Shown here: one piece after another, positions 2,841 through 49,995 of the stretch
Position numbering within the stretch: the first letter of the stretch is position 1
Layout of the letters: the number at the start of each line of letters is the position of its first letter
NCBI GenBank assembly: GCA_017536405.1
Contig: JAFXHL010000018.1
Location: forward strand, 1 to 52,571
Length of the DNA stretch: 52,571 nucleotides
Direction: 5' to 3'
Source: Oscillospiraceae bacterium
GTDB taxonomy: Bacteria; Bacillota; Clostridia; Oscillospirales; Ruminococcaceae
Translations under genes and position numbers: made by a program
Notes under the pieces: model-generated
What the model was told of the DNA's origin: nothing
The model's input: only the letters and a program-made list of their open reading frames with translations
The model's database searches: none

Positions 2841-4529
2841 TTAGATAGAGAATGTTGTCTTAATGAGTTCGTCAACAGATGTTGTACCCTGCATAACGAG
2901 TTCAGCAACGTTGTCACGGAGAAGACGTGTTCCCTTTGTTTTAGCCATAGCAGCGATCTGTTCAACTGTACCATCGTTTGCGATAAGTGTTGAGAGTTCA
3001 CCGTCACACATGATGATTTCGTGAATAGCAGTACGTCCTGCGTAACCTGTGTTGTTACACTTTGAACATCCGCAGGGTTCATATATAGGAACAGATGACT
3101 GAATTCCCAAAAGGTCATTTTCTCTTGCGTCAGACATTCTCATCTTCTTACATTCGGGGCAGAGAATCTTAACAAGTCGCTGTGCGATAACACCGATAAG
3201 TGATGTAGCAACCATGTATGATGCGATACCCATGTCACAAAGACGGATGATTGTTGATGCAGCGTCATTTGTATGAAGTGTTGAAAGAACAAGGTGTCCT
3301 GTGATAGCCGCTCTGATACCGATTTCTGCTGTTTCGGTATCACGCATTTCACCGATCATAACGATATCGGGGTCCTGACGGAGAATTGAACGAAGAGCAG
3401 CGGCGAATGTCATACCTGCCTTTGTGTTAACCTGACACTGGTTAACGCCGTCGATATTCTTTTCGACAGGGTCTTCAACGGTAACTACGTTAACGTTGGG
3501 CTTAGCGAGTTCGCCGAGTGCGGCGTAAAGTGTTGTAGATTTACCTGATCCTGTAGGTCCTGTTACGAGGATAACGCCGTGAGGACAAGTAATCATCTTT
3601 TCAAACATTACATAGTTGTAGTCTGTCATACCGAGGTCTGTAATCTTTCTTACAGAAACGTCACCTGTAGAAAGGATACGGATAACGATCTTTTCGCCGG
3701 CAACCATGGGGAGTGAAGATACACGGACGTCGAGAGTAACGCCGTCAACTACCTGTGTGAAACGACCGTCCTGAGGGATACGCTTTTCAGCGATGTTCAT
3801 TCCTGAAATAATCTTAACACGAGTTGAGAGAGAGTTATGTACTACATTTGAAACCTGCATCATTTCAACGAGTTCGCCGTCGACTCTGACTCTGATTCTT
3901 GTGTAGTTCTTGAAAGGTTCGATATGGATGTCTGATGCGCCCATTCTGAATGCGTTTTCAACGATTGTTGTTGCAAGCTTAACGATAGGTGCGTTGTCGA
4001 CACGGTCTGCCATATCTGCTTCTTCAACAGCAGCGATATCTTCTTCGGGGATAAACTGGTTTGAAACGCTGTCGAGAACTGAGTCAACGTTCTGCATTGA
4101 GTAGTTTCTGCCGATAGCCTTTGTTATCTGGTCCTTAGTTGCGAGAACGGGGATAACGTCCATACCTGTGATAACCTTAACGTCTTCAAAGATATAGAAG
4201 TTAACGGGGTCGTTAGTAGCAACTGTAAGTCTTCTACCCTGAATGTTGATAGCGATGATTGTATGTTTCTTAGCGAGTGATTCGGGAACCTTCTTTACAG
4301 CTTCTGCATTGATCTTGTATTCAGAAAGGTCAACGAATTCAACGCCCATTCTTTCAGCGAGAACCTTAGCGAATTCAACGTCTGAAACATAACCGAGTTC
4401 GATTACATAGTCACCGAAGAATTTACCGGGTGTACGGTTTTCTTTTTGTGCCTTAAGGACTTCCTGTAACTGTTCGTCAGTAATAAGTCCCTTCTGCACC
4501 ATATATTGTCCAACAGGAATGTTTTTCAT
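2841..4529 (-). CDS. pilB: Type IV pilus extension ATPase PilB with MshEN-like N-terminal domain
   Basis: 562 aa from the ATG at 4529, chosen because GGAGGG lies 7-8 bp upstream; the open frame continues 30 codons further but without a ribosome site. Residues 1-62 contain two MshEN-like half-motifs (VGQYMVQKGLITDEQL and FGDYVIELGYVSDVEF), a fold that binds c-di-GMP in MshE-type ATPases. The spacing is 3 residues longer than canonical and the usual Arg is missing, so binding is uncertain. The ATPase core has Walker A GPTGSGKST (324-332), a GEMRD Walker B (403-407) and a zinc-type Cys set (C457, C460, C488, C491). It powers pilus assembly. pilT follows. Confidence 0.95.
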   Translation of the reverse strand: MKNIPVGQYMVQKGLITDEQLQEVLKAQKENRTPGKFFGDYVIELGYVSDVEFAKVLAERMGVEFVDLSEYKINAEAVKKVPESLAKKHTIIAINIQGRRLTVATNDPVNFYIFEDVKVITGMDVIPVLATKDQITKAIGRNYSMQNVDSVLDSVSNQFIPEEDIAAVEEADMADRVDNAPIVKLATTIVENAFRMGASDIHIEPFKNYTRIRVRVDGELVEMMQVSNVVHNSLSTRVKIISGMNIAEKRIPQDGRFTQVVDGVTLDVRVSSLPMVAGEKIVIRILSTGDVSVRKITDLGMTDYNYVMFEKMITCPHGVILVTGPTGSGKSTTLYAALGELAKPNVNVVTVEDPVEKNIDGVNQCQVNTKAGMTFAAALRSILRQDPDIVMIGEMRDTETAEIGIRAAITGHLVLSTLHTNDAASTIIRLCDMGIASYMVATSLIGVIAQRLVKILCPECKKMRMSDARENDLLGIQSSVPIYEPCGCSKCNNTGYAGRTAIHEIIMCDGELSTLIANDGTVEQIAAMAKTKGTRLLRDNVAELVMQGTTSVDELIKTTFSI

Positions 4530-4569
4530 AAATAGCCCTCCGTCGTGATATTTCTTTGAGGATACCCTC

Positions 4570-4598
4570 CAAAAGTCCCCTTGCATTTCGGACTTTTG
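4570..4598 (-). promoter_or_regulatory. Hairpin in the pilB leader
   Basis: A 9-bp perfect inverted repeat, CAAAAGTCC (4570-4578) with GGACTTTTG (4590-4598), lies about 40 bp before the pilB ATG, between pilB and the divergent pilD promoter. No run of T follows it, so it is not a plain terminator. It could be a leader structure or an operator. Confidence 0.4.
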
Positions 4599-4608
4599 CA
4601 AGGTATTC

Positions 4609-4637
4609 TTGAAATTCATATTATTTTGTGGTAGAAT
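4609..4637 (+). promoter_or_regulatory. Promoter of pilD
   Basis: TTGAAA (4609-4614), 17 bp, TAGAAT (4632-4637), preceded by TGG, giving an extended -10. It is placed 32 bp before the pilD ATG. Confidence 0.7.
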
Positions 4638-42275: not shown

Positions 42276-43058
42276 TTATCTTTTTACAGCAAATCTTTTT
42301 TCTGAAACTGCGATTTCTCTTTTATAGCGAAGGCGGAGTTTATCCGAAATAAGCGCTATGAATTCGCTGTTTGTGGGCTTGCCCTTGCCTGTATTCACTG
42401 TATATCCGAAATAGGAATTGAGTGTGTCAACATCGCCTCTGTCCCAAGCGATTTCAATCGCGTGGCGGATTGCTCTTTCAACCCTTGATGATGTTGTGTC
42501 AAAACGCTTTGCAACCGTTGGATAAAGGATTTTTGTAACGCTTTCAAGCATCTCTTCATCATAGACGGAAATAACTATCGCCTCACGAAGATAATGATAT
42601 CCCTTTATGTGTGCGGGAACGCCTATCTGATGAATGATTTCTGTAACTATGACTTCCATATTGATTTCGTCTTTCTGCTGATTTATTTCCTTGCTGACAG
42701 AAATCGCCTTTTCAACAAGTGTCTGCACTCCGAAAGGCTTTTTGATTACCTCAGTAGCACCTATTCTCATAAGCTTCTCCTCTTCTTCAATCTGACCATA
42801 AGATGTTATAACAATAAATTTAGGCGGAACAATCATATCAGCCTTTACCCTGTTTATAACGCTTTCAGCATTGGCACCCTGCATTTCGGCATCAACTATA
42901 ACAATATCGGGGCGTTCATCCTTTATCGCTTCTATGGCATCATTTCCGTTTTTCTGCCTTGTTGTAACGATAAAGCCGTTGTTCTTGAGTGCTGTTGCTG
43001 AAACGGATTCGCCATTTATTCCGTTTTCACATAAAAGTATTTTTGTTTTCGCTGTCAT
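42276..43058 (-). CDS. spo0A: Sporulation master regulator Spo0A
   Basis: 260 aa. Receiver (1-125) with phospho-Asp56 in [10 protein letters not shown], switch Thr in FIVITSYG and Lys in IKKPFGVQ, then the Spo0A C-terminal DNA-binding domain: [35 protein letters not shown], and [20 protein letters not shown]. These residues match B. subtilis Spo0A closely. It controls entry into sporulation. Promoter TTGATT-17-TATCAT upstream. spoIVB, its usual neighbour, is missing here. Confidence 0.97.
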
Positions 43059-48617: not shown

Positions 48618-48639
48618 AATAATCCTCCGTATTTAAAAA

Positions 48640-48673
48640 GACAACAAAGGCTTTTCAATGTCCCTTTGTTGTC
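48640..48673 (-). terminator. Terminator of the CheY/MshEN-CheX operon
   Basis: GACAACAAAGG / CCTTTGTTGTC stem with a 12-nt loop, followed by TTTTT on the minus strand. Confidence 0.85.
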
Positions 48674-48687
48674 TTCTTGTCTTAAAA

Positions 48688-49590
48688 TTATTCAGCCTTT
48701 ATCTTGTCTGATGAGATGATAACGGATACTGTTCCGAACGGGAAGCAGATAGGCATAGTAAACATTGAGCCCTTAGTAGAAAGTTCTATGCTTTCCTTTG
48801 AAATCTGGGGTTCAAGCTGAAGTTCAATCTGCTTGTTGTTTGACATATTTACTGTGAAAAGTCCGTTATGTAAGTTTAAAAATTCTGCAACAGATTCTCT
48901 TGCGAGTTCATCGAAACTGTCGATTTCTTCGTGTGAATATCTCTTTGCGAATTCAACCATAGCCGCTTCGGTACCTTCAATAGCTGTAAATACTTCTCCC
49001 TTTCCGTTTACCATCTGATAGGAGATTTTTTCTGCCTTATAAGATGTTGTTGCTTCGGGAGCCAAGGGAATGAAATCATCGCCTATGAAACGGATGATAT
49101 TCTTGAAAACGAGTGATGTGTATTCTGTGAAGAATTCAACATCTGAATCGAATGTGTTGAAGATATAGAAATTGCGGATGATTGTGTCGATTTTACGATT
49201 CTGGTCATCTGTGAAATCTCTTTCTTCGATAAGGTTGTTTTCCTTATATTTAGCGAGAGCATTTGCAAACTGTTCGTTTGTGAGGTAACCCTTGTCAACA
49301 AGCGCCTGACCGATAACGAGATGAGCCTGCTTCTGATTTGAGAGAAGAGTTTCTACCTGTGATTCTGTCATATAGCCCTTTTCAACGGCAATGTCACCGA
49401 ATCTCTTGTCCATTCTCTGCTGTTCTGCGTGAACTTCGTCAACCTGTGCGGCTGTCATATATCCTGCGTTGATAGCGAGAACGCCGAGCTTTGCGCGGGC
49501 GAATTTCTGCATTTCGAGAGCTTCTATAAGTTGCTGTTTTGTAACGAGTTTTTCGTTAAAAAGATAGTTTCCGAAAAATTGTGTAAACAT
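48688..49590 (-). CDS. MshEN-like repeat protein with C-terminal CheX-like domain
   Basis: 300 aa. Residues 5-115 hold four copies of a motif of the form [FL]GxxxxxxGY[ML]TxxQ. The anchoring Gly residues are G7, G36, G65 and G94: an exact 29-residue period, the period of the two half-motifs (24 + 5) of MshEN domains, which bind c-di-GMP in MshE. The third has the usual Arg before the hydrophobic residue (KRFGD). Residues 120-300 resemble CheX/CheC phosphatases: a near-signature ESVAEFLNLHNG (E-x2-N with a Pro 22 residues on, in LEPQISKE) and the terminal CFPFGTVSVIISSD strand. The function is inferred: a phosphatase for the CheY-like protein encoded 6 bp upstream, with a c-di-GMP sensor. Confidence 0.75.
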   Translation of the reverse strand: MFTQFFGNYLFNEKLVTKQQLIEALEMQKFARAKLGVLAINAGYMTAAQVDEVHAEQQRMDKRFGDIAVEKGYMTESQVETLLSNQKQAHLVIGQALVDKGYLTNEQFANALAKYKENNLIEERDFTDDQNRKIDTIIRNFYIFNTFDSDVEFFTEYTSLVFKNIIRFIGDDFIPLAPEATTSYKAEKISYQMVNGKGEVFTAIEGTEAAMVEFAKRYSHEEIDSFDELARESVAEFLNLHNGLFTVNMSNNKQIELQLEPQISKESIELSTKGSMFTMPICFPFGTVSVIISSDKIKAE

Positions 49591-49596
49591 GGTGGG

Positions 49597-49995
49597 TTAC
49601 TTCCTTTCGGCGATTTTTTCGATGATTTTTGTTACATCGTCAAAGTTTACGGGCTTCTGTAAGAATTCATAAGCGCCTGCTGCAATGGCGATCTTGAGGT
49701 TATCCTGTGTACCTACTGATGAGGCCATAACAACCTTTGCAGATGAGTCATATGCGAGAATATCAATGAGCGCTTCAACGCCGCTCTTTTCAGGCATAAC
49801 TATATCCATAAAAACAACATCGGGCTTGTTTGCCTTATAGACATCAACAGCCTCGTTGCCGTTTACTGCTTCAAAAACAGTTGTAATTCCGAGTGATGCA
49901 AGATGGTCTTTCATCTTTTTTCTGACAAGAACAGAGTCATCGCTGATCTGAACTTTAATATCCTTGATTTCCATAATATCTCTCCTCACTTTCAA
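49597..49995 (-). CDS. CheY-like single-domain response regulator
   Basis: 132 aa. Receiver with D12/D13 acidic pair, phospho-Asp57 in PDVVFMDIVMPEKSG, Ser86 in VVMASSVG, and Lys107 in FLQKPVNF. No output domain. Next, 6 bp on, comes the MshEN-CheX-like gene, so the pair is co-transcribed. No cognate kinase gene is near. A chemotaxis- or pilus-type switch is inferred. Confidence 0.92.
   Translation of the reverse strand: MKVRRDIMEIKDIKVQISDDSVLVRKKMKDHLASLGITTVFEAVNGNEAVDVYKANKPDVVFMDIVMPEKSGVEALIDILAYDSSAKVVMASSVGTQDNLKIAIAAGAYEFLQKPVNFDDVTKIIEKIAERK

Follow-up and report, generated by a model that had tools for sequence, protein, structure and literature searches.

A two-gene module of Clostridia pairing a CheY-like receiver with a putative c-di-GMP-gated CheX phosphatase

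Introduction

Known links between c-di-GMP and chemotaxis act mostly on the motor or the receptors. A large group of proteins built on the MshEN domain was described by Wang et al. 2016 (PMC5013675), who counted more than 10,000 of them, including V. cholerae MshE and T. thermophilus PilF GSPIIB. The phosphatase CheX is named there, in one phrase, among the partner domains of MshEN, and the main text gives this architecture without a function, a pairing or an organism. The catalytic pair of CheX consists of an acid and an Asn (E96 and N99; PMC3641820, PMC3035606).

Here we analyze a window, the whole stretch of 52,571 nucleotides of DNA from an Oscillospiraceae bacterium with a genome of 1.85 Mb, in which an MshEN-CheX fusion is encoded beside a CheY-like receiver. 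Our preferred reading, to which we give a probability of roughly 0.6, is that the pair constitutes an operon for a c-di-GMP-gated CheX phosphatase and a CheA-driven CheY, with type IV pili as the probable output. An initial annotation had taken the architecture to be undescribed. Because Wang et al. 2016 lists CheX among the MshEN partners, the bare MshEN-CheX architecture is not wholly new; the part of the claim that stands concerns the conserved two-gene module and its link to type IV pili, which were found nowhere in the open-access literature searched. That literature also yielded no functional study of an MshEN-CheX protein and, beyond the phrase in the main text of PMC5013675, no c-di-GMP-gated chemotaxis phosphatase.

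Results

The two genes are both on the minus strand and are separated by a gap of 6 bp (49591-49596), the distance that the initial annotation had given (Table 1). Ribosome sites are found upstream of both. The most likely start of the receiver gene is the ATG at 49974, judging from the GAGGAGAG ribosome site just 5' of it, and this start replaces the TTG at 49995 that had been proposed before. On the 3' side of the MshEN-CheX gene, a consensus scan for terminators, which allows only loops of 3-8 nt, was negative and missed a strong hairpin of -20.7 kcal/mol that was detected by RNA folding. Given the ribosome site at the receiver stop codon and the hairpin after the second gene, the pair looks like a closed two-gene operon. 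Its flanking genes vary from genus to genus.

Table 1. Coordinates of the receiver/MshEN-CheX pair in the window and of related genes at other loci
Feature	Position	Strand	Basis
CheY-like stand-alone receiver, 125 aa, gene 1 of the pair	49597..49974	-	Pfam Response_reg 4.6e-22
Codon of the phospho-acceptor Asp57, receiver	49804..49806	-	alignment of 81 receivers
GGAAG ribosome site for gene 2, abutting the receiver stop codon	49600..49604	-	sequence reading
MshEN-CheX fusion, 300 aa, gene 2 of the pair	48688..49590	-	profile searches, predicted structure, fold match
Half-motif M1, residues 5-28, degenerate: position 1 is Phe; Gly10, Gln24 not conserved	49507..49578	-	family alignment
Half-motifs M2+M3, residues 34-86, complete 53-residue MshEN unit, predicted c-di-GMP site	49333..49491	-	NF053729 44 bits
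Half-motif M4, residues 92-115, degenerate: position 1 without Arg/Lys, Tyr for Gln at 24	49246..49317	-	family alignment
CheX-fold phosphatase domain (putative), residues 145-296	48703..49158	-	Z 17.9 to B. burgdorferi CheX
E236-F-L-N239, predicted catalytic ExxN	48874..48885	-	alignment with canonical Bacillota CheX
Hairpin then T-run, likely intrinsic terminator of the two-gene operon	48635..48678	-	RNA folding, z -6.9
MshEN-CheX-like paralogue, genome G000, contig C17	L031:4511-5416	+	
MshEN-CheX-like paralogue	L043:6542-7447	-	
MshEN-CheX-like paralogue	L042:6986-7906	-	
Bacillota REC-CheX fusion, then stand-alone CheX	L194:4143-5454	-	
Bacillota REC-CheX fusion, then stand-alone CheX	L195:4081-5413	+	
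Bacillota REC-CheX fusion, then stand-alone CheX	L196:4068-5401	-	
Bacillota REC-CheX fusion, then stand-alone CheX	L197:4359-5674	+	
Bacillota REC-CheX fusion, then stand-alone CheX	L198:4287-5602	-	

Relatives of the fusion were gathered from one species-level genome collection, in which 218 candidates were confirmed and the best 80 of these retained. The carriers among these best 80 are nearly all Clostridia, many of them gut-derived, with Calidifontibacillus as the outlier. The pairing seen in the window is a feature of the family: at all 80 retained loci (best 80 of 218) a receiver gene lies directly upstream on the same strand. It is also the sole common neighbour, the next commonest being found at 10 of these loci, and a third conserved operon gene was sought among them and not found. 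At a few loci the strand opposite to the pair encodes, no more than about 1 kb away, a small HPt-like protein that is a possible phosphotransfer partner (L082:129-542 and L096:3950-4318, both minus strand).

The receiver is of the CheY type, with the acidic pair, the phospho-acceptor Asp, the Ser/Thr and the Lys in place and no output domain, and the corresponding residues (D12, D13, D57, S86 and K107) are invariant in an alignment of 81 receivers. Its closest solved structures are CheY proteins, T. maritima CheY (1.2e-22) and others including the CheY3 of the CheX-CheY complex 3hzh. It is most likely phosphorylated by CheA, as suggested by its co-occurrence with this kinase in 18 of the 19 carriers described below.

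In the N-terminal part of the fusion, Gly7, Gly36, Gly65 and Gly94 are spaced exactly 29 residues apart. This periodicity was noticed in the initial annotation and is borne out by a lag-29 self-identity of 0.27, a value that none of 5000 shuffles reached for lags of 5 to 59. The NCBIfam model c-di-GMP_motif (NF053729) matches the protein at 4.7e-26, and a phmmer search with it matched PilF and MshE chains. Pfam matches of the repeats to FumaraseC_C and DUF4388 were rejected as separate domains, being below cut-off and overlapping the MshEN motifs. The MshEN assignment made earlier could be narrowed to the middle half-motifs, M2 (residues 34-57) and M3 (residues 63-86), which alone keep every polar contact and have the 24-residue length and five-residue spacer (58-62) of an MshEN unit. 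In each of them, positions 1-3 are a basic residue, a hydrophobic one and Gly, position 17 is again hydrophobic, and position 24 is Gln. M1+M2 was rejected as a binding unit because M1 is without the conserved Gly10 and Gln24, and M3+M4 because M4 is without Gln24.

With contact positions taken from the main text of Wang et al. 2016 (PMC5013675), the predicted c-di-GMP contacts in M2+M3 are K34, L35, G36, V50, H54, Q57, R63, F64, G65, V79, L83 and Q86. Eleven of the 12 positions fit, with the type of residue conserved; only His54, at position 21 of M2, departs. Among the 77 receiver-paired family sequences, L35, G36, V50, Q57, R63, G65 and Q86 are invariant. With three distant paralogues added (79 sequences), the protein has just 13 invariant columns in all, and six of the 12 contacts, with G36, Q57, G65 and Q86 among them, still fall in these (hypergeometric p 1.5e-6 for M2+M3, 0.09 for M3+M4). 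Neither of the two patterns used to gather relatives (EFLNLHNG and [IL]IRF[IV]G[DG]DF) falls within M2+M3. Most relatives have His54 in place of Leu at position 21 of M2, and Ile or Phe is frequent at position 2 of M3; the affinity for c-di-GMP may be reduced as a result.

An AlphaFold2 model of the 300-aa protein (pLDDT 88.5, pTM 0.85) has the four-helix MshEN_N fold, and its residues 32-87 superpose on c-di-GMP-bound T. thermophilus PilF GSPIIB (8pfa/8pdk) with Z 11.2 and 0.9 Å over 55 residues. By the alignment offset, in our own reading of the aligned ranges, K34 and Q57 would face K167 and Q190 in PilF, two residues named in the titles of mutant structures. PilF, which binds c-di-GMP, also has a Lys at motif position 1.

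The near CheC/CheX signature reported for the C-terminal part proved to be E236-F-L-N239, with Pro261 lying 22 residues past the Asn. A fold check of residues 120-300, which the initial annotation had likened to CheX, ranked CheX first, far ahead of the other matches. Model residues 149-296 align with B. burgdorferi CheX at Z 17.9 (2.2 Å over 144 residues) and the domain matches T. maritima CheX at Z 17.7, whereas FliM, FliY and CheC reach only about 10; Foldseek likewise matched CheX (3hm4, E 1.5e-9). The Pfam CheX model (PF13690) scores below its curated cut-off on the window protein (E 0.0024, 18.3 versus 27 bits), and it matches 74 of 79 aligned family members at E values up to 0.1 (best 3.7e-8). 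A sequence-only profile search of the domain against PDB chains returned no CheX, and the link therefore rests on the fold and on an alignment to canonical CheX proteins. The sole match in that search, a weak one to Multicystatin (0.0033), was set aside as chance, the fold search being unambiguous.

When ten canonical Bacillota CheX proteins from the family search are aligned with the domain, E236, N239 and G243 are the only fully conserved columns. N239 is invariant in 79 sequences and position 236 is Glu in 71 and Asp in 6 of 77 receiver-paired relatives, numbers possibly biased by the fact that relatives were gathered by EFLNLHNG or [IL]IRF[IV]G[DG]DF. The 37 relatives without EFLNLHNG nevertheless all have N239, with Glu (31) or Asp (6) at position 236.

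Three paralogues in the window's genus (Table 1) have the catalytic acid replaced by Arg or Asn and no receiver neighbour. The one that was modelled has the same two folds, with Z 15.3 to CheX. The coincidence of acid loss with the absence of a receiver fits a phosphatase-substrate pair, and the paralogues are possibly non-catalytic c-di-GMP effectors. Another recurring receiver/phosphatase module, a REC-CheX fusion directly followed by a stand-alone CheX, was observed in other Bacillota (Table 1).

The distribution of the pair was analyzed in 49 genomes, 19 carriers and 30 non-carriers, with one weak case (G440) excluded. CheA and PilB are found together in 18/19 carriers versus 3/30 non-carriers (p 2e-9), a pattern to be read as association and not as proof because the genomes are non-independent, the carriers were partly picked by kinship to the window, and several genomes are incomplete MAGs. 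Counted by genus, 7 of the 9 genera that have both CheA and PilB carry the pair, against 1 of the other 28 (p 2.6e-5). PilB was detected in every one of the 19 carriers and GGDEF proteins in every carrier scored; the GGDEF part of the GGDEF-EAL protein that had been assigned in the window was confirmed. FliG is present in 12 carriers and missing from the other 7, a weak association (p 0.04), and the pair is absent from five non-carriers that have CheA and flagella and no PilB. Among the matches listed, the FliG-less genomes G100, G154 and G040, and also R. bicirculans (G446), show no stand-alone receiver other than that of the pair, and the FliG-less G239, G268 and G401 show one further stand-alone receiver each. 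CheR, CheB and CheW were found in G040 and no CheA was detected there, so CheA may not be the sole phosphodonor; a CheR-CheB-CheW-like cluster of this genome lies at L170:5795-8091 (plus strand).

A single CheA frame was seen in the window's genome, together with a separate flagellar CheY between fliY and fliO and a CheC further along. Because flagellar CheY, CheC and FliY are also there, the target in this genome could be flagellar. The PilB of the window (2841-4619, minus strand) bears an MshEN pair of its own (50.5 bits at 4353-4514), and type IV pilus assembly itself therefore probably reads c-di-GMP too. A 260-aa protein weakly matching a receiver (51.9 bits) is encoded about 5.6 kb from the pair (42276-43058, minus strand). 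An orphan CheC-like protein (CheC 2e-11) was found on contig C2 of G000 (L172:3169-3768, plus strand), distant from the flagellar cluster and with a MinD/ParA-like ATPase and an enolase-like ORF nearby.

Discussion

Fold, conservation of the active and ligand sites, pairing and co-occurrence were obtained by computation, and from them we infer ligand binding, catalysis, the direction of gating, CheA as donor and type IV pili as target. In the mechanism that we propose, Asp57 of the receiver would take up a phosphate, most likely from the CheA of the cell, and the MshEN-CheX protein would act as its dedicated phosphatase, its Glu236 and Asn239 entering the receiver active site to position the attacking water. 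The c-di-GMP receptor would be formed by M2+M3, fused to CheX and flanked by the two degenerate half-motifs, and its occupancy would alter either the phosphatase rate or access to the receiver. With a CheY-like protein and a CheX fused to a c-di-GMP sensor encoded by adjacent genes, c-di-GMP probably decides how long the receiver stays on, and the lifetime of the phospho-receiver would be set jointly by chemosensory input through CheA and by the global c-di-GMP level. The output would probably be type IV pilus activity and not the flagellar switch. The interpretation offered by the initial annotation is supported overall, with c-di-GMP binding, phosphatase activity, gating and type IV pilus output putative. 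The residues predicted to be critical are Q57, Q86, E236 and N239 of the fusion and D57 of the receiver.

The same observations bear on other readings. The CheX-fold domain might mainly bind the phospho-receiver, with the MshEN-CheX protein itself serving as the output that conveys both the state of the receiver and the c-di-GMP level to PilB or another part of the type IV pilus. The presence of PilB in all carriers would suit such an adaptor, as would the acid-less paralogue of the same fold, a non-catalytic version used in the same genomes, and the arrangement would parallel the cyanobacterial PATAN-CheY regulators that bind PilB1 (PMC9090330). However, binding alone would not require an invariant N239 and an always acidic position 236 in the receiver-paired family, and the acid is lost where the receiver neighbour is missing; we consider an adaptor unlikely. 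The protein could also be active on the receiver as a phosphatase while its MshEN part has lost c-di-GMP binding and acts as a helical domain for dimerization or scaffolding. Binding-deficient MshEN domains such as XpsE are mentioned in the main text of PMC5013675, two of the four half-motifs are degenerate here, and a contact Leu is replaced by His54. Against a silent sensor stand the Gln and Gly residues of M2+M3 that stay invariant even in the paralogues, and the Lys at motif position 1 is shared with PilF, a binder; we regard a silent sensor as distinctly improbable.

Least probable, in our estimate a long shot, is that the pair is a second CheY with its phosphatase acting on the flagellar switch, with c-di-GMP damping swimming. 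The receiver's kinship to CheY proteins agrees with this, and FliG is encoded in the window's genome and in most carriers. Yet seven carriers manage without FliG, the pair is missing where CheA and flagella occur without PilB, the window's genome already has a CheY within its flagellar genes, and the association with FliG (p 0.04) is faint beside that with CheA and PilB (p 2e-9).

A phosphatase that reads c-di-GMP would bring this messenger in at the step where the chemosensory signal is switched off. For gut bacteria of the Ruminococcus type that have no flagella, it would offer a molecular hypothesis of how CheA, CheW and CheR are used with type IV pili. More tentatively, and at slightly less than even odds, we suggest that Clostridia have here a dedicated junction where the dephosphorylation rate of a CheY driving type IV pili is set directly by c-di-GMP. 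The CheA pathway, in some genomes without flagella, would thereby steer surface motility or adhesion with c-di-GMP as a gain control, and the fusion would, as far as the literature found goes, be the first phosphatase of the CheC/CheX class to be gated by a second messenger.

The pair shares features with several known systems. Like other MshEN proteins, the fusion has tandem 24-residue half-motifs with 5-residue spacers and the same Gln, Gly and basic contacts; unlike them, it has four half-motifs, the middle two intact, joined to CheX and encoded beside a receiver of its own. The CheX proteins of T. maritima and B. burgdorferi (PF13690) resemble it in fold (Z 17.2-17.9), in the ExxN...G motif with Pro at +22 and in having a CheY partner. 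The window protein differs from them in being only 13-14% identical and below the Pfam cut-off, in its fused c-di-GMP receptor (predicted), and in that its receiver lies outside any flagellar or chemotaxis operon. The Bacillota REC-CheX modules likewise combine a receiver with CheX, but their receiver is fused in cis and no MshEN or other c-di-GMP sensor was seen in them, whereas the window pair has MshEN. Finally, the cyanobacterial PATAN-CheY regulators (PixE and others; PMC9090330) also join a CheY-type protein to an extra domain in type IV pilus control with c-di-GMP crosstalk. Those regulators bind PilB1 directly, whereas the window pair splits receiver and sensor between two proteins and has a putative phosphatase as the partner.
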